This document shows, in pieces, positions 5,814 through 48,143 of a stretch of DNA of 64,000 nucleotides. Every line of letters begins with the position of its first letter. The first letter of the stretch is position 1. The translations under genes and the position numbers were made by a program. The stretch spans positions 71,355 through 135,354 of the forward strand of contig JARGPH010000007.1 of assembly GCA_029213065.1 (NCBI GenBank), written 5' to 3'. The notes under the pieces were generated by a model. It ran no database searches. It saw nothing but the letters and a program-made list of their open reading frames with translations, and was not told the origin of the DNA. Origin of the DNA: Verrucomicrobiales bacterium. Its GTDB lineage: Bacteria > Verrucomicrobiota > Verrucomicrobiia > Verrucomicrobiales > DEV007.

Positions 5814-8228
5814 ATGAATTTTTTCAGGCTACTTTTTTTGATCTCGTTTTTAACGGTTTCGCTTACGGCGGAGGACAAGGCTGATCCCGTCGCCGATGCT
5901 GTTGAGCCGTTTTTCAAAGAGCATTGTATCCGATGCCACGGCGAGGATAAGCAGAAGGGGGATTTTCGGATCGACACCCTGTCGCGGGATTTTCAAAGTG
6001 GCCGGGATACGGATCTCTGGTTCGAAGTCGTTACCCGTATGGGTGCAGGTGAGATGCCGCCGGATGATGAGGAGGTTCTGCCAAGCCCGGAAGAGTCGGA
6101 TTTCGTGGTCGGTTGGCTCACTGACCGCATCCGCGAGGGGGAAGCGGTTCGGCTCGCGAAGCGCGCGCCTGTGGAGCATTATCGGCTCAGTCGTGAGGAA
6201 TATTCGAATACGATCTATGATCTTCTCGGAGTCGAGTACGACACGCGGGCTCCGGGAGCGTTTTCGGAGGACCCGGAGTGGCATGGAATTGAGCGGCTCG
6301 GTTCGGAGCTTTCGCTGTCGCCCTCGCATGTTGAAAAGTATTTGAAAGCTGCCTCGGCGGTGATCGACAGGGCTTTCCCTGACAAAGAGCCAAGGAAGCT
6401 GGAAACGCACCGAACCGCACTTGAGATCGATTGGCATAACCGCGCAAAAGTAAAAGAACTCACTGAGATTGGCGTGGCGGAGCACGTTCGCACCCTGATC
6501 TGGGCAGATCATAAATTGAGCTACCTGCGCCCGCACGGAGGTCATGGGCACAGCCCCGGTTTATATCGAGCGAGGATCAAGGTGAGTGGGCTGACTCCGG
6601 AGGGATCCCGTCCTCCTCACATGACCCTGTACTCGAAGAAACTCGATCGGATGATTTTCGAGACGGATGTTCTCGCGCCGGAAGACGAGCCGGTTATCTT
6701 TGAATTTGAGACTTACCTTCCGGATGGTCAGGTCGATATTTCGATTAATAACGAGGTGCCGGGTCCTTCCAATTCGGGGCGTTCCGGTCGTCCCGGCGAT
6801 TTTGTTTTCACGACTCTGGACGATCCGAAGGCGCGTGCTCCCTGGCAGCGCAAAATGACCGATGATGAGGGCAAACCACTCTATCCCTTTTTGATCTTTG
6901 ACTGGATTGAATGGGAGGGGCCAATCTCAAAGCCGGAGGATCTCAAAAAACGCGAAGGGATTTTTCCGGCGGAGAACGACCCGCAAAAAGTGAAAGCCGC
7001 ATTGCGGACTTTTGCTGAACGGGCCTGGCGGAGACCGGTGACGGATTCTGAGCTGGGGCGCTACCTCGCGATTATTAATCAGCAGATCGAGTCCGGTGCG
7101 GAGTTCCGTCAGGCATATAAGGCGGGTATGTTAGGGCTGTTGGCCTCGAAGAATTTCAATTATCTCGTCGAAGGCACCGCCGGCGGGAAACGTCAGGAAT
7201 TGAACGGTTTTGAGCTCGCCTCCCGCCTGTCCTATTTTCTCTGGGGTTCGATGCCGGACGCGGCTCTTTTTGAACTCGCCCGGACCGGGGAATTGAATCA
7301 ACCCGAGGTTCTCTCTGCGGAATTTGACCGGATCATTGCCGACCCGAAAATTCAACGATTCACTGAGTCGTTTCCTCACCAGTGGTTGCAGCTGCAGAAA
7401 GTGGGGATGTTTCCGCCCGATGAAAAGTTGTATCCCGATTACGACAAGTGGCTTGAGCAAAGCATGGTGCTGGAAACCACGAAATACTTTGAGCAGGTTT
7501 TCAAAGAAAATTCTCCCATAGGCGAGCTGATTGACTCGAGCTGGACGATGCTCAATCCGCGTCTTGCTGATCACTACGGATTGCCAGCGCCGAAGCAGGC
7601 CGGTTTTCAAAAGGTGTCTCTCAAGCCGGAGGACAAGCGCGGTGGCATTCTCACGCATGGTTCGATTCTTTCGCTGACATCCGACGGGACGCGGCATCGT
7701 CCGGTGCATCGCGGAATCTGGGTGTCTGAGGTGATTTTCGGAAAGACCCCGCCTCCGCCGCCCCCTAACGTTGATGCAATTGCTCCCAATCCGATTGATG
7801 AGCCCAAGGCCACGATTCGTCAGAAGCTGGCGGCGCACATTGCCGATTCCAGCTGCGCGAGTTGTCATGCGAGGATCGATCCCCTCGGGCTTGCCTTTGA
7901 CAACTACGATGCGATCGGTCGCTGGCGGACTGAAGAGATCGTTCAAAAAGGGACAGGCGCGAATCCTCCCGTCGACGCGAGCGGAACCCTTCCTGATGGC
8001 AAATCGTTCGCCGATGTCGATGAGTTCAAGCAGCTCCTTGCAGGAAGAGAAAAGGAGTTTGCTCATACCCTGGTTGAGAAACTGGCGACCTACGCGCTGC
8101 GCCGGCGCATGGCATTTGATGACGCTGCGGAAATGAAGGCAATCGTCGAGAAGGCGAAAAAGGACGACTACCGGTTGCGGAGTCTCGTGCGGGAGTTGGT
8201 GATGTCAGAATTGTTCCTGAAGAGGTGA
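5814..8228 (+). CDS. Secreted DUF1587/1595/1592/1588/1585 haem protein (planctomycete-type cytochrome), copy 1
   Basis: The 804-residue protein starts with a signal peptide (about residues 1-19). A haem-binding CIRCH motif follows at residues 38-42. Then come blocks matching the usual order of this family: DUF1587 (HYRLSREEYSNTIYDLLG), DUF1595 (ERAWRRPVTDSELGRY), DUF1592 (ELASRLSYFLWGSMPD), DUF1588 (RGGILTHGSIL, with a second haem-type motif CASCH) and DUF1585 at the C-terminus. The biochemical role of these proteins is not established. They are taken to be periplasmic redox or carbohydrate-degradation factors of Planctomycetes and Verrucomicrobia. The usual partner, a DUF1552 protein, is encoded downstream but is separated here by a GxxExxY cassette that begins one base after this stop codon. 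A paralogue lies at 45834-48143. Confidence 0.92.
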   Translation: MNFFRLLFLISFLTVSLTAEDKADPVADAVEPFFKEHCIRCHGEDKQKGDFRIDTLSRDFQSGRDTDLWFEVVTRMGAGEMPPDDEEVLPSPEESDFVVGWLTDRIREGEAVRLAKRAPVEHYRLSREEYSNTIYDLLGVEYDTRAPGAFSEDPEWHGIERLGSELSLSPSHVEKYLKAASAVIDRAFPDKEPRKLETHRTALEIDWHNRAKVKELTEIGVAEHVRTLIWADHKLSYLRPHGGHGHSPGLYRARIKVSGLTPEGSRPPHMTLYSKKLDRMIFETDVLAPEDEPVIFEFETYLPDGQVDISINNEVPGPSNSGRSGRPGDFVFTTLDDPKARAPWQRKMTDDEGKPLYPFLIFDWIEWEGPISKPEDLKKREGIFPAENDPQKVKAALRTFAERAWRRPVTDSELGRYLAIINQQIESGAEFRQAYKAGMLGLLASKNFNYLVEGTAGGKRQELNGFELASRLSYFLWGSMPDAALFELARTGELNQPEVLSAEFDRIIADPKIQRFTESFPHQWLQLQKVGMFPPDEKLYPDYDKWLEQSMVLETTKYFEQVFKENSPIGELIDSSWTMLNPRLADHYGLPAPKQAGFQKVSLKPEDKRGGILTHGSILSLTSDGTRHRPVHRGIWVSEVIFGKTPPPPPPNVDAIAPNPIDEPKATIRQKLAAHIADSSCASCHARIDPLGLAFDNYDAIGRWRTEEIVQKGTGANPPVDASGTLPDGKSFADVDEFKQLLAGREKEFAHTLVEKLATYALRRRMAFDDAAEMKAIVEKAKKDDYRLRSLVRELVMSELFLKR

Positions 8229-8257
8229 ACCACGGATGAACACAGATTGACGCGGAT
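8229..8257. repeat. Left inverted repeat of the GxxExxY cassette
   Basis: Begins accacggatgaacacagatt and continues to 8257. It is built of loosely repeated ggatgaacac-like units and is the inverted partner of 8635-8663. Confidence 0.8.
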
Positions 8258-8266
8258 CAGGGCATC

Positions 8267-8632
8267 ATGAAATTTGAAAAAGAGACAGGTGAGATATTGA
8301 GTTGTGCCTTTGAAGTGGCCAATTCCCTCGGTCATGGTCTCCTCGAGAAGCCCTACGAGAATGCGCTCGTGGTTGAAATGGCTCTTCGGGAGATTCCTGT
8401 TGAGCAGCAAAAGCGGTTTGATGTCGTCTTTAAGGACGTGGTTGTGGGAGAGTATATTCCGGATCTGATCGCGTTCGGAAATATCATCGTTGAGGTGAAA
8501 ACCATTGAATCAATTTCTGACAGCGAGCTCGGCCAGGTCATCAATTACCTTAAGATTTCGGGTTTTGAAGTTGGACTGATCGTAAATTTTAAACATCCAA
8601 AAGTAACTTGGAAGCGAGTAATCAATTATTAA
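8267..8632 (+). CDS. GxxExxY family protein (PD-(D/E)XK nuclease-like fold)
   Basis: The 121-residue protein carries the family signature as GHGLLEKPYENAL at about residues 24-36, where Gly, Glu and Tyr are spaced as in G-x-x-E-x-x-Y. A PD-(D/E)XK-like arrangement follows: DLIAFGNIIVEVKTI gives an Asp, then Glu and Lys after a beta strand (E-V-K). It ends in a helix with Gln and Asn (GQVINYLK). The family is known for small, patchily distributed, often multicopy genes; its function is not established. It may be a nuclease-fold protein or a remnant selfish element. It lies wholly within the inverted-repeat cassette, and its base composition looks more AT-rich than its neighbours. The ATG at 8267 begins 10 bp after the left repeat. 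Confidence 0.88.
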   Translation: MKFEKETGEILSCAFEVANSLGHGLLEKPYENALVVEMALREIPVEQQKRFDVVFKDVVVGEYIPDLIAFGNIIVEVKTIESISDSELGQVINYLKISGFEVGLIVNFKHPKVTWKRVINY

Positions 8633-8634
8633 TA

Positions 8635-8663
8635 ATCCGTGTCGATCCGCGTTCATCTGTGGT
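8635..8663. repeat. Right inverted repeat of the GxxExxY cassette
   Basis: Runs from atccgtgtcgatccgcgttc to tctgtggt. It starts 3 bp after the GxxExxY stop codon and ends 12 bp before the DUF1552 start codon. Confidence 0.8.
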
Positions 8664-8675
8664 CTCTCATTTCCT

Positions 8676-10040
8676 ATGAATATTCAATCCGAAAAATGGC
8701 TTCTCTCACGCCGGCATCTTTTGCGGGGGCTTGGGGCGTCGATCGCGCTTCCGATGCTTGATTGCATGCGACCGCTCCGGGCGGCGGGCAGGGCGGCAGG
8801 GCCGAAGCCGAAGCGCAGCGTTTTCATCTACCTGCCCAATGGCGTCAATACTCTCGACTACCAGATTCTTGAGGACGGCGCTGATTATACTTTCAGCCGG
8901 AGCCTTAAGCCGCTTGAAAAGCACCGAGCTAACATTACGCCTATTTCAGGGCTGCATCACCCGCACGGGCTGGGGCATCACCACGGCTGTCAGTCGATCT
9001 GGCTGACGGGTGGGGAGATCGGGCCGGGCAAGCGGAACAGTGTTTCGCTCGACCAGTTGATTGCTGAAAAAACGGCCCCTTTTACGCGGTTCTCGTCGTT
9101 GCAGTTGAGCAACACCGGTCGATCACTTTCCTACAATCGTGATGGAATTCAGCTGCCGGCGGAGACGAAACCGGCGCAGATTTTTGCGAGGCTCTTTGAA
9201 GCCCCCGAGGGCGGGATCGAAAAAGAGCGGGCCGGGTTGGCTCGTCAGGGAAGTATTCTCGATGCGGTGCTCAGTGAGGCGAAGGAGCTGGAACGTCAAA
9301 TAGGGAGCGAGGACAGAACCCGGCTGGATCAGTATTTGACCTCGGTTCGCGAAGTGGAGATTCGAACGGAGCGTTCCAACGAGTGGCTCGATATACCCCG
9401 TCCGGAAATTGACGATGAATCACGGCGTAAGATTACGAGAGCGGTTTCGCAGGGCGATCCCGGAGACTATTTCCGGACGATGTATGATCTCATGATACTT
9501 GCCTTTGAAACTGATGTGACACGGGTGATCACCTTCAGTTCCGGGGACGAGGGCAAGGGGCTTCCCATCCCTGAGCTGGGGATCAATCAGACGAGGCACG
9601 CGCTATCTCACCACAACGGCGATGCGGATCAGCTGGACCGGCTCACGCAGAGCGACGCCTTCAACTTCGAGCAGTTCGGCTATCTGCTGGACCGTCTCGC
9701 GGAGGTCGAGGACGAAAATGGAACGTTACTCGATTCGACCATCGCGATGTATGGCAGCGGAATGGCTTACGGACACAGTCACGGAAACGCGAACGTCCCC
9801 ACCCTCGTTGCCGGAGGGAAAAAGCTCGGCCTTAAGCACGGCCGACATGTTGATTTTAACAAAGGGCATTTCGATGGCTATAATCTCAGTGAGCCGAAAG
9901 CGCACTACCAGATTTGCTCCCGCCCGGTGAACAGTGATGCCCGTGTTAGTAATTTGTTAGTGACGCTGGCTCAAAAGATGGACGTCGAAGTGGAAAGCTT
10001 TGCCGACAGTGTGAAGCCCCTTTCAGAGATCGAGGCATAA
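8676..10040 (+). CDS. DUF1552 protein, Tat-exported, copy 1
   Basis: The 454-residue protein begins with a twin-arginine-like signal: LSRRHLLRGLGASIALPML at about residues 10-28. It is therefore probably exported folded, perhaps with a cofactor. The body has the DUF1552 pattern: VFIYLPNGVN near the N-terminus, GLHHPHGLGHHHG with clustered histidines, then SLDQLIAEK, and near the C-terminus GSGMAYGHSHGNANVPTLVAGG. The histidine clusters suggest metal binding, but that is inference. DUF1552 genes almost always follow DUF1592 genes in Verrucomicrobia and Planctomycetes, as here, except that a GxxExxY cassette intervenes. No biochemical activity is established. The paralogue is at 44599-45825. 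Confidence 0.9.
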   Translation: MNIQSEKWLLSRRHLLRGLGASIALPMLDCMRPLRAAGRAAGPKPKRSVFIYLPNGVNTLDYQILEDGADYTFSRSLKPLEKHRANITPISGLHHPHGLGHHHGCQSIWLTGGEIGPGKRNSVSLDQLIAEKTAPFTRFSSLQLSNTGRSLSYNRDGIQLPAETKPAQIFARLFEAPEGGIEKERAGLARQGSILDAVLSEAKELERQIGSEDRTRLDQYLTSVREVEIRTERSNEWLDIPRPEIDDESRRKITRAVSQGDPGDYFRTMYDLMILAFETDVTRVITFSSGDEGKGLPIPELGINQTRHALSHHNGDADQLDRLTQSDAFNFEQFGYLLDRLAEVEDENGTLLDSTIAMYGSGMAYGHSHGNANVPTLVAGGKKLGLKHGRHVDFNKGHFDGYNLSEPKAHYQICSRPVNSDARVSNLLVTLAQKMDVEVESFADSVKPLSEIEA

Positions 10041-44598: not shown

Positions 44599-45825
44599 TC
44601 AAGCTAATCCGGTCATGGTGCTTTTTCCGGTGGCGAAGGTTTCCTCCTCGAGGCCCATTTGCTGCATCATGCTGACGAAGAGGTTCGCGAAGGGATAGTT
44701 CTCTTCGCCTTCGAATTTGAGGTGTTGGCCGTGCTTCCAACTTCCTCCGGCGAGGAGGATGGGAAGGTCTTTGGTGATGTGTCCGCTCGCGCTTCCGAGG
44801 TTGCTGCCCATCATGATCTGGGTGGTATCGAGAAGGGTTCCCTCACCATCGGGAGTCGATTGGAGGGCGCGGATGAACTCGGCCCATTCGTGGATCATTT
44901 CCCGTTCGATGATTTCAAGCTGACTGATCATCTCGGGATTTTGGCCGTGGTGAGTGAGGGCGTGATATCCCATCGTGACGCCCGGGAGGGGCGGAACCTG
45001 GCTATGTCCTGCTCCGGCCATCGCGACGACCCGGGTGGAGTCGGTTTGGAGGGCGAGGCGGATTACCTGGAAATGTTCGCGGAGCCAGTTTTTGACGTCG
45101 GAGCGGGGAGCGCCTTTCGGGGCTGGTTCGGGCACTGCCGGCTTGGGGGTGTCGAGCCACTTCTGTGCCTTCGTGAGGCGGCTTTCGGTTTCGCGGACGG
45201 CGGTGAAATACTGATCGAGCTTTTCCCGGTCGAGGCGGCTCGCCCGCTTCGCGACTGACTCGGCTTCGGCTCTGACGACATCGAGAATGCTGTGCCCGCT
45301 CTGGAGCTGTTGTTTTTGTCTGCTGATTTCGGTCTGACTTCCGCTGAGAAAGAGCTTCGCGAAAAGCTGATCGGGACGGGACTCGCCGGGCACTTCGACG
45401 CCGGTGGCGGTCCAGGAGATGCGCTCCCGTCCCACGGTGAGAGATGCATGGCGTGTCACCTCGCCGATCTTGCCGGCGATATACTGATCGAGGGAGACCG
45501 TGTTTTTAAAACCCCGTGAGGCGGGATGAGGAGCCGCTGTCAAAAAACTTGCTTCAGCTTCATGTCCGCCGTCGACCTCGGGGTGGCTCACTCCGGAAAT
45601 CACGGTGAAGCGATCTCTGAGGTCTTCGACTGGTGTCAGATAGGGGCTGAGTTGGTACCCTGTCCCTGCATCGATGGGGAAAAAGTTCGGGGGGTGGAAT
45701 CCGAGGGGCATGTTGATGCAGACGATGCGCTTGGGCGATTCCGGTGTCTTTTCAGCGTAGAGGTCCAATGCGGGAAGGGCGAGGCTGATCCCGGCGCCTC
45801 TCAGAAACTGTCTTCTTTTGATCAT
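44599..45825 (-). CDS. DUF1552 protein, Tat-exported, copy 2
   Basis: The 408-residue protein from the ATG at 45825 starts with a Tat-like signal (IKRRQFLRGAGISLALPALDL). The mature part has GVSHPEVDGG, NTVSLDQYIAGKIGE, MAGAGHSQVPPLPG and GSNLGSASGHITKDLPILLAGG. These correspond to the segments of copy 1 (VSLDQLIAEK and VPTLVAGG). The GLHHPHG cluster of copy 1 is absent here. An upstream frame start at 45996 would add a non-family N-terminus. It begins 8 bp after the stop of the DUF1592 gene, i.e. it is co-transcribed. Paralogue: 8676-10040. Confidence 0.9.
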   Translation of the reverse strand: MIKRRQFLRGAGISLALPALDLYAEKTPESPKRIVCINMPLGFHPPNFFPIDAGTGYQLSPYLTPVEDLRDRFTVISGVSHPEVDGGHEAEASFLTAAPHPASRGFKNTVSLDQYIAGKIGEVTRHASLTVGRERISWTATGVEVPGESRPDQLFAKLFLSGSQTEISRQKQQLQSGHSILDVVRAEAESVAKRASRLDREKLDQYFTAVRETESRLTKAQKWLDTPKPAVPEPAPKGAPRSDVKNWLREHFQVIRLALQTDSTRVVAMAGAGHSQVPPLPGVTMGYHALTHHGQNPEMISQLEIIEREMIHEWAEFIRALQSTPDGEGTLLDTTQIMMGSNLGSASGHITKDLPILLAGGSWKHGQHLKFEGEENYPFANLFVSMMQQMGLEEETFATGKSTMTGLA

Positions 45826-45833
45826 GGATTCTT

Positions 45834-48143
45834 CTAGGGGGTTCTGAAGAGGTCGCTTCCGACGATGAGTTTGAGGAGGGTCTTTAATCCACCGCCCCGG
45901 TTTTGTGCCTGCTCGACAAGTGTCTCGACGGCTTGGCGATCTGAAAATCCCAGTTCGCGCCCAAGGCCATAGGTGAGAAGGCGATCGGTGAGGCATCGAA
46001 GGAAGCGCTCCTCGTCTTTGAGAAGGAGGGCTTTGAATTCACGGATTTCCTTGAACGTTTCCCCGCTGCTGAGCTCGCCCGAGGCGTCGACTTCTTTTGC
46101 CTGGATTACTTTGCCCCAGCTTTTGCCGGGGGTGGGAATGAACTGCAGATAGTTTTCACGGAAGCCTCCGATGGGATCGAAGCTTTCGAGGGCGAATCCC
46201 GGCGGGTCGATATACTGGTGGCAGGATCGGCAACTTTCATTGTTGCGGTGGAGATCGAGTTGCTCACGCACGGTTGTCGCCTCGCGGATGTCCGGTTCGA
46301 TTCCGGCAATGTTAGGAGGTGGTGGCGGAACGTGGTGTCCTAGGATGTTTTCGAGGACCCAGACGCCCCGGAGAACCGGTGAAGTGTTCGTGCCGTTCGC
46401 GGTCACTTTGAGGATGCCCGCCTGAGTGAGGAGCCCTCCGCGAACGCTCCCGGGAGGGAGGGGGACCGGTCTCATCGCGAGGCCGCTTACACCGGAGATC
46501 CCGTAGTGTTCGGCAAGGCGTTCGTTGGCGATGATGAAATCCGAATCGAGAAAATTCCGAACCGGCAGGTCATCGTGGAGCACTTTTCGGAAAAAGGATT
46601 CTCCTTCTTCAACCATTGCGGTTTGGAGGAGTTCGTCGAACTCTTTATACAAATTGGAGTCGGGAGTGGTTTCGTTGATTTTTCTGAGACCGAGCCACTG
46701 GCCGGTGAAATGTTTGATGAAGCGTTCGCTCTTCGGGTTGTTGAGGAGACGGTCGAGCTCCTGCTCGATTCTTCCGGGTGCGCTCAGGGTTCCTGATTCG
46801 GCAAGGTCCAGTAGTTGTTTGTCAGGGCCACTGCTCCTGATGAAATAGGACAGTCGCGATGCCAGTTCGTAGTCGGAGATGAAACCGTCACCGCCGGTTT
46901 CGCTGAGGGTGAGGAAGTTGGTGGAACAGAGGATGGCCTCCATTGCGGTGCGCAGGCTTTCGCCCGCTGAAAGCCCCGACTGTTTTTGCCGTTCGAAAAG
47001 GGCGGTGTATCGGAGCAGCTCAGGATCTGTGACGGGACGGCGAAAGGCACCTGTCGCTAACTTTCGCAGAATGTTCCGGGCTTGGTCATCGGAGAGTGTG
47101 GCGAGATCGATCGTTCCAACGAGGTTTCGGTGGCTTGGCGGCGGCCATTCTTCAGCGAGTGGTCCGGTGATCTCCACTTCGCTGAATCCAATTCCGGTGA
47201 ACCCGTTCAGGTCGGGATCTTTTCCCCAGGTAGGCAATCCAAGGGCGAAGAACTGAATCGATTCGTTTGGGGCTAGTCGTGTTTCGAGTTCGAAGGGCTC
47301 CGGCCGGGTTCCCACCTCGAAGTAGCCGAGAATTTGATCTGCGGATTCAGGTCCGGATTTCATGACCGAGAAGACTTCTTTTCTCTCTGTGTTCCTCGCG
47401 ACGGCTGAGAAGCGGAACCGGTACCTTCCGGGTTTTGTGATCCGGGTTTTCCGTGTTGAAATTTTACTGTAGCTTTGTCGGTCTGTCAGGTAGGAGAAGA
47501 CAAATCCATCGTGGTAACCGTATTGCTTTCCGAAATAGGGTTTCGGCTCTTCGGCCAGAGTGTTGATGATCGATTCCGTTTCGGGGCGTGGTCCGTCGAT
47601 GAGTGCGGCGTCGAGGGCGATGCGGGCGGTTTTCAGATAGCTCTCAATCAGTTCTGAAGAGATCGCGAGGGCGGCGCCATTGTTGTCGAATCCCCCGGCC
47701 TTCTGGTCGGGGGGGAGGTGTTGTTTGAGCTCGATATCGATCCCGAGGAGATCCTGTATGGTATGCTCATACTCGATCCGGTTGAGTCTTCTCTGAACCA
47801 CTTCACGAAGCTCCCGATCCGCCTTATCGAGACGAGGGGCCAGGGTTTCGAGAAACAAGGCGACGTCTTCGGCTGACAGGTCGCCCCGTTTCTTTTCGGG
47901 GGGCATTTCGCCGTTTTTGACGCGGTCGAAGATGTGAGTCCACTGACCGACGTCACTTATTCCGGAAATGGAGCCCGGATCAACATTGTAGAGATTGAGC
48001 CCGCCTTTGCTGACGTCGTCATCGTGGCATTCGACGCAATGCGATTCGAAAAAGCTCTCAAGGTTCGACAATTCGTCGTCGCCGACGACTGCTCCGACGC
48101 TCAGAATAGCGGTCAGGAGAATCACTGAGAACGAACGTGTCAT
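45834..48143 (-). CDS. Secreted DUF1587/1595/1592/1588/1585 haem protein, copy 2
   Basis: The 769-residue protein has a signal peptide (MTRSFSVILLTAILSVGAVVG) and the first haem motif CVECH near residue 40. DUF1587 (EVVQRRLNRIEYEHTIQDLL), DUF1595 (LATGAFRRPVTDPELLRY), DUF1592 (ELASRLSYFIRSSGPDK), DUF1588 (GSVRGGLLTQAGIL; second haem-type motif CRSCH) and DUF1585 follow in the expected order. Sequence identity to copy 1 (5814-8228) is clearly limited outside conserved blocks, so the two copies are old or separately acquired. Its DUF1552 partner starts 8 bp downstream, giving the tight arrangement lost at the first locus. Confidence 0.92.
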   Translation of the reverse strand: MTRSFSVILLTAILSVGAVVGDDELSNLESFFESHCVECHDDDVSKGGLNLYNVDPGSISGISDVGQWTHIFDRVKNGEMPPEKKRGDLSAEDVALFLETLAPRLDKADRELREVVQRRLNRIEYEHTIQDLLGIDIELKQHLPPDQKAGGFDNNGAALAISSELIESYLKTARIALDAALIDGPRPETESIINTLAEEPKPYFGKQYGYHDGFVFSYLTDRQSYSKISTRKTRITKPGRYRFRFSAVARNTERKEVFSVMKSGPESADQILGYFEVGTRPEPFELETRLAPNESIQFFALGLPTWGKDPDLNGFTGIGFSEVEITGPLAEEWPPPSHRNLVGTIDLATLSDDQARNILRKLATGAFRRPVTDPELLRYTALFERQKQSGLSAGESLRTAMEAILCSTNFLTLSETGGDGFISDYELASRLSYFIRSSGPDKQLLDLAESGTLSAPGRIEQELDRLLNNPKSERFIKHFTGQWLGLRKINETTPDSNLYKEFDELLQTAMVEEGESFFRKVLHDDLPVRNFLDSDFIIANERLAEHYGISGVSGLAMRPVPLPPGSVRGGLLTQAGILKVTANGTNTSPVLRGVWVLENILGHHVPPPPPNIAGIEPDIREATTVREQLDLHRNNESCRSCHQYIDPPGFALESFDPIGGFRENYLQFIPTPGKSWGKVIQAKEVDASGELSSGETFKEIREFKALLLKDEERFLRCLTDRLLTYGLGRELGFSDRQAVETLVEQAQNRGGGLKTLLKLIVGSDLFRTP

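Follow-up and report, generated by a model that had tools for sequence, protein, structure and literature searches.

In the window, by which we mean the whole 64,000-nucleotide stretch of Verrucomicrobiales DNA analysed here, a small GxxExxY gene framed by two inverted arms lies between a DUF1592 gene and a DUF1552 gene. The locus, and a second gene pair located elsewhere in the window, comprise the following features:

5814..8228, plus strand: upstream host gene, encoding a PSCyt1/DUF1587/DUF1592/DUF1588/DUF1585 protein of 804 amino acids
8227..8257, plus strand: left arm with its probable GA edge, the edge being taken from the GAACC consensus
8230-8237, 8240-8247 and 8250-8257, plus strand: left-arm units CCACGGAT, ACACAGAT and ACGCGGAT, respectively
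8267..8632, plus strand: GxxExxY gene, encoding a protein of 121 amino acids (PD-(D/E)XK nuclease superfamily 3)
8635..8663, minus strand: right arm, inverted
8662-8655, 8652-8645 and 8642-8635, minus strand: right-arm units CCACAGAT, ACGCGGAT and ACACGGAT, respectively
8676..10040, plus strand: downstream host gene, encoding a DUF1552/HXXSHH protein of 454 amino acids, with its ATG 12 bp past the right arm
44632..48131, minus strand: paralogous DUF1592-DUF1552 pair without cassette, located by tblastn; outside the element and listed for comparison only

The left arm (8229-8257) reads ACCACGGATGAACACAGATTGACGCGGAT, and the right arm (8635-8663) reads ACCACAGATGAACGCGGATCGACACGGAT when reverse-complemented. 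The first-pass annotation had described the two arms as matching at 24 of 29 positions in inverted orientation, with all differences being transitions. A recount bears this out: the mismatches fall on arm positions 6, 14, 16, 20 and 24, and five of five are transitions. The placement of the arms is likewise as described, with the DUF1592 stop codon (8226-8228) abutting the left arm and the right arm ending 12 bp short of the DUF1552 ATG at 8676. Each arm is built from three 8-bp units at an exact spacing of 10 bp. An ungapped scan of the 64-kb window for inverted 29-mer pairs matching at 24 or more of 29 positions (outer span about 60-600 bp) returned a single pair, the arms of the cassette, and a chance inverted repeat was ruled out because of this uniqueness. 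Related elements mostly start with GAACC and finish with GGTTC (G precedes AACC in 52 of 65, and C follows GGTT in 46 of 65), which places the edge of the window element probably at 8227. The TGA stop codon of the DUF1592 gene would then probably consist of a T contributed by the host and a GA supplied by the element, because the best-matching relatives (L009-L012) have TAA at the DUF1592 stop. We are highly confident that the feature is a mobile cassette of roughly 437 bp (about 8227-8663).

The paralogous DUF1592-DUF1552 pair at 45.8 kb, which had been put forward as lacking the unit, is indeed cassette-free and lies on the minus strand (by tblastn, the DUF1592 match ends at 45846 and the DUF1552 match starts at 45834). 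Its best DUF1592 and DUF1552 matches are 38% and 32% identical to the window genes, respectively. As a distant paralog the pair is weak evidence for an empty site, and relatives provide the better comparison. DUF1552 matches were present in 27 of the 56 genomes searched (relatives plus the genome of the window itself); 30 loci were fetched, and 28 junctions were readable. The search for an empty allele in close relatives succeeded at the best-matching junctions, orthology being judged by identity: L009 (76%), L010 (71%), L011 (63%), and L012 and L035 (62-63%) are all cassette-free. A small gene is present in 10 of the 28 readable DUF1592-DUF1552 junctions, that of the window included. It encodes a GxxExxY protein in four of them (L008, L025, L029, L036) and an S23/IVP protein in the other six (L013, L015, L017, L019, L023, L030). 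Several further junctions, read by eye, apparently hold repeat arms only. The GxxExxY proteins in the DUF1592-DUF1552 gaps of L025, L029 and L036 are of double length (about 243 amino acids), and these genes have their own arms, built around CTCCAGCAGATTCAGG.

A genome-wide search for further arms found a gene-less inverted doublet of 92 bp (L003), located directly after a stop codon, and a half site (L005). A second GxxExxY gene of this genome (L002; 38% identical) lies between two other host genes, and its arms have the same design as the window arms and different letters. Empty alleles in relatives and arms elsewhere in the genome thus support the original proposal of a small, arm-bounded mobile unit that sits precisely in an intergenic gap. 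GxxExxY genes occur in 35 of the 56 genomes and S23/IVP genes in 41, and both are often present in multiple copies.

Over its full length the window protein belongs to the families TIGR04256 (GxxExxY; E 1.8e-37, 128.3 bits, cut-off 35) and PF13366 (PDDEXK_3; E 1.5e-34, 119.3 bits, cut-off 22), whose descriptions are silent on any mobile cassette. Residues E27, D66, K78 and Q90 are invariant across 29 aligned proteins. Position 76, read by eye, is either E or D in the alignment (E76 in the window protein) and is presumably the PD-(D/E)XK residue. An AlphaFold2 model of the window protein (pLDDT 95.7) matches the structures of lambda exonuclease (E 8.6e-4), the Cas4-like SSO0001 (1.3e-3) and a Holliday junction resolvase (0.018), with R2 as a weaker match (0.09); a sequence search of the PDB gave no match at E 1. 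Based on this model the GxxExxY protein has a PD-(D/E)XK DNA-nuclease fold, and enzyme activity is predicted. For four related cassette pairs, dN/dS values of about 0.04-0.10 indicate that the protein is under selection.

A phage or viral origin was dropped because tblastn found no match to the GxxExxY protein in phages and a profile search found no confirmed relative in viral contigs. Seven plasmid records in PLSDB contain GxxExxY. The flanks of all seven regions were read by eye, and inverted arms are plain in the three that were judged (L287, L289 and L291). In L287 (Bacteroides finegoldii NZ_OY725952.1) a cassette with CACAGAGG-type arms lies between radA and the gene for an FAD-dependent protein, starting a few bp past the radA stop codon. 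This record is labelled a plasmid, yet it holds chromosomal-type genes.

Arms are a widespread attribute of GxxExxY genes. From 94 distinct genes in relatives, eight were left out because their E value exceeded 1e-20 or a flank was short, and inverted flanks were detected in 56 of the remaining 86, as compared with 12 of 268 control ORFs (Fisher 3e-31) and with 4.6% of mismatched flank pairs. Long ORFs from these loci, some of them adjoining cassettes, served as controls. The 30 genes without detected arms include one clade of ten in which no arms exceed the threshold (L066, L133, L134, L136, L137, L139, L140, L141, L144, L145), and the GxxExxY protein can therefore exist without arms. Arms vary between loci, and left and right arms agree within a locus. 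Their period is 9-10 bp (44 arms; z 13 at lag 10). Where flanks are unrelated, arm similarity tracks protein similarity, the correlation being weak in size (44 loci, Spearman 0.18, p 0.0006), and 912 of 946 flank pairs have no BLAST match. Other protein clades use other arms.

Beyond these relatives, a scan of named genomes covered 80 of the 187 relatives listed (56-66% identity), and the titles of these 80 records name more than 10 high-level groups. Here the arms follow the pattern GAACCACGGAT-GGACACGGAT-GAACACGGAT with variations. They exceed the threshold in 45 of 78 loci when the naive gene start is used (2 of the 80 being short), and in other loci, inspected by eye, the ATG lies inside an arm. 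In L063, L115, L118 and L122, which come from four genomes and have common flanks, the arms differ in concert (ATTTGCGG, ATTCGCGG, ATCTGCGG), such that every unit in the two arms apparently changes along with the others.

That the moving unit ends at its arms, as had been proposed for the window, is also evident from other genomes. Two 428-bp copies in the Terriglobia chromosome OX638355.1 are 87.6% identical exactly from arm to arm, and their flanks are unalignable. A contiguous empty copy of the Terriglobia repeat was not found, the hits being half matches only. Gene-less Terriglobia copies are composite because sequence outside the arms is also common to them. Among loci L157-L236, the range covered by pairwise alignment (search limited to 72% identity and E 1e-20), 35 locus pairs align as one piece of 330-520 bp with at least 75% identity. 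In 24 pairs the start of the alignment lies about 10 bp or less from AACCAC in each of the two loci, and in nine its end lies near GTGGTT. Both edges coincide in eight pairs (L168/L169, L168/L196, L174/L185, L177/L207, L183/L211, L185/L225, L187/L189, L188/L215), whose alignments run from arm to arm with unalignable flanks, and were not seen in 27 of the 35. L169 is an isolate, Desulfobulbus alkaliphilus, and L168 is titled Opitutales. Common host flanks are found in several loci that derive from metagenomes and bear different group names (L163/L188/L189, L177/L206, L191/L225); some group labels are therefore probably misbinned, and cross-phylum transfer is weakened as a proof.

One junction, found in the genus of G083, exists in several allelic states. 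This junction, between lgt-like and radical-SAM-like genes (named by eye), was readable in 10 of 18 matching genomes, and its states were read by eye. The full cassette is present in G083, G088 and G239, whereas the gene is internally deleted and the arms are kept in G236. G207 has arms only, as has G211 with another arm type, and G200, G204, G214 and G227 have a gap without arms. A tree of the flanks, which has weak support, sets the gene-deleted G236 apart from the full alleles.

It could be argued that the arms are not mobile ends at all but punctuate transcription or translation of a resident gene, as an attenuator, a terminator or a binding site, given that they are close to the gene and that the upstream ORF can have its stop codon inside them. 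Such a function would not predict homology that runs from arm to arm between unrelated flanks, copies that lack the gene, or presence/absence alleles. In its general form it is contradicted by the Terriglobia copies, the junction alleles and the aligned locus pairs, and we consider it most improbable. Judged by their sequences, the loci taken together show an arm-to-arm mobile unit, decay to arms, multi-copy arms accompanying the gene, and no target duplication. That the element is a mobile cassette bounded by its arms is, in our view, very probably correct.

Some loci deviate from the simple organization. A short palindromic element lies within an arm in L375 and L377 (two genomes of one genus), which amounts to nested small elements. 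The Methylococcaceae loci L200, L201, L202 and L216 contain apparent tandem GxxExxY cassettes whose copy number varies between genomes. An apparent insertion in L149 proved to be a run of N.

The relation between arms and gene was assessed in 115 sampled genomes of the phylum, 49 of which are GxxExxY-positive and 66 negative by a profile search at E 1e-10. Counted by hand, the three-unit arm pattern is present in 34 of the 49 positive but only 3 of the 66 negative genomes. At least two matches are found in 32 of 49 versus 0 of 66, a comparison in which the Fisher test ignores relatedness; within six families holding both kinds of genome the figures are 5 of 8 and 0 of 42. The reversed arm pattern has no match in the 115 genomes. 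The three-unit pattern is lacking in 15 of the 49 positive genomes. It is present in 31 of the 34 named genomes listed (of the 80 loci), all of which had been chosen for having the gene. Co-occurrence of arms and gene could stem from a third, unseen factor.

Gene-less copies outnumber the gene in G037, the one genome that represents its genus, with 68 two-unit arm matches and one GxxExxY gene. Twelve inverted doublets measured there are 69-93 bp long. Their loops are mostly unrelated (mean pair score 5.6 versus 5.1 for shuffled loops; two share a stretch), and internal deletion of a gene cassette thus does not account for them. Either conversion may keep the arms alike while the loops drift, or the arms may be written anew. 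Some of the G037 doublets (L324-L361), whose arms are conserved, pair an AGAT-type with a GAAT-type arm. Another arrangement is found in the Acidobacteria-titled G089 (the genome of L235), where arms form tandem rows with a regular spacing of about 225 bp in one direction, almost CRISPR-like (e.g., at C70:957-1883 and C86:109-1266).

Taking the comparisons of loci and genomes into account, we lean towards a model in which the GxxExxY nuclease itself moves its cassette and the gene-less doublets. The protein would recognize the repeated units in the arms of its own cassette, whether present as duplex, hairpin or cruciform, and would cut at the arm edges. Such cuts would allow both the cassette and gene-less doublets to be copied or to move, in cis as well as in trans. 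This would resemble the RAYT transposase thought to act on REPINs, but with another enzyme class. In the mRNA the arms can pair into a long stem, from which RNase III may excise the cassette, as in the intervening sequence (IVS) of 23S rRNA. The cassette would persist because host operons carry it and neither gene is broken.

Alternatively, the cassette might be moved by another enzyme, such as a DDE transposase or an HUH/RAYT enzyme acting in trans, with GxxExxY as a passenger that serves, for instance, as a nuclease in defence or regulation. To our knowledge the GxxExxY protein has no known activity, which is compatible with a passenger role, as are the persistence of gene-less doublets, the allele that lost part of the gene and kept its arms, and the existence of an arm-less GxxExxY clade. 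The restriction of two or more arm matches to genomes with GxxExxY (32 of 49 versus 0 of 66) and the correspondence of arm type with protein similarity argue against it. Moreover, most DDE enzymes leave a target duplication, unlike what is seen here. We regard the passenger role as rather unlikely.

Most cassettes are found between genes of one direction, and many touch or complete the stop codon of the gene upstream. With gene neighbours called by a simple ORF-based procedure and only co-directional neighbours counted, the cassette gene has the same direction as its neighbours at ratios of 50:10 in relatives, 51:4 in named genomes and 23:3 for IVP (pooled, 124:17). Ordinary long ORFs give a baseline of 5:1 (10 ORFs); the sense bias thus indicates residence in operons and need not imply a special mode of insertion, and sense orientation is weakened as proof of an RNA step. 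An edge was readable in 67 of the 80 named-genome loci. For 54 of these 67 cassettes, an upstream co-directional ORF of at least 90 codons ends between -120 and +40 bp relative to the edge; the element completes or contains the stop codon of 21 of these 54 ORFs. Evidence for target duplication was not obtained, direct repeats of at least 5 bp being present at 1 of 65 sites versus 2.9% by chance (mismatched flanks). Nor was a palindromic target detected (at least 5 inverted bp at 3 of 65 sites versus 3.1% by chance), and a perfect palindrome around L285 does not generalize. RNA folding of the window cassette predicts a long stem that joins its two ends (z -3.67).

The S23/IVP genes offer a parallel. 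Of the IVP matches, the minority that lie in the fetched loci were considered; two items were dropped, and 29 of the remaining 35 genes have inverted arms. The arm period is 7 bp (20 arms; z 9.4 at lag 7 and 9.7 at lag 14). S23 proteins are known from 23S rRNA IVSs. The IVS of Coxiella has 428 nt, a 28-bp terminal stem and a small ORF, and transposition of IVSs is discussed only as a hypothesis (PMC4990558). The window cassette resembles such an IVS in its size of about 430 bp, its terminal inverted repeats of about 28-29 bp, its one small ORF and its sporadic horizontal spread, and IVP cassettes of equal design occupy DUF1592-DUF1552 gaps of relatives. It differs in that it lies between the protein genes DUF1592 and DUF1552 and not in an rRNA helix, that its gene encodes an unrelated nuclease, and that its arm units measure about 10 bp as opposed to 7 bp for IVP.

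This resemblance raises the question of whether the cassette is an RNA-level intervening sequence, whose arms pair in the transcript, which is excised by RNase III and which re-inserts via reverse transcription or RNA-guided events. Sites beside stop codons of transcribed genes would be accounted for in this way, and the long stem of the predicted RNA, the anatomy shared with the Coxiella 23S IVS (PMC4990558), and the like architecture of the S23/IVP family in a like gap are in line with it. However, sense orientation does not clearly exceed the 5:1 baseline (10 ORFs), and the encoded protein has, by its model, a DNA-nuclease fold. An RNA route appears improbable to us.

The nuclease-driven model invites comparison with further known systems. 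As described in PMC3116915 and PMC8266576, REPIN/RAYT systems likewise consist of inverted short-repeat doublets in extragenic space, with numerous gene-less copies alongside a single gene or a few genes that the repeat flanks, and with enzyme and repeat varying together. The numerical excess of doublets over the gene in G037 (68 two-unit matches to one gene) is a further likeness. By contrast, GxxExxY is a PD-(D/E)XK nuclease and not an HUH (Y1) tyrosine transposase, its repeat comprises three tandem units, each about 10 bp long, and not one palindrome, and the loops of gene-less copies can be unrelated. Pairs of insertion sequences (IS) and MITEs also include gene-bearing and gene-less copies with common inverted ends, but the GxxExxY cassette has neither a transposase nor a detectable target duplication. 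Unlike a homing endonuclease element, it has no single conserved target, since for 912 of the 946 pairs of loci BLAST finds no match between the flanks. Because enzyme class and location fail, respectively, the cassette is a member of neither the REPIN/RAYT systems nor the IVSs; by analogy, it works like the former and looks like the latter.

Among the open-access papers searched, PMC8934634 and PMC11270868 included, we found no description of a GxxExxY cassette, no occurrence of the arm sequences and no function for GxxExxY or S23/IVP proteins. It is conceivable, and we suggest it tentatively, that the cassettes form a separate class of bacterial miniature elements. Such elements would have ends of iterated units (about 10 bp for GxxExxY, 7 bp for the four-helix S23/IVP proteins), would be moved by these proteins, and would insert between operon genes and leave gene-less doublets in trans. 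The rRNA IVSs would then be a branch that landed in rRNA genes.

Cassettes with and without a gene in distant bacteria point to a little-noticed kind of mobile DNA. Linking GxxExxY and S23/IVP proteins to cassettes with their own arm grammars gives each of them a testable function, and the spread of rRNA intervening sequences becomes testable in ordinary operons. The cassette offers a REPIN-like system on a nuclease fold, and would account for short intergenic repeat families that recur in many bacteria.
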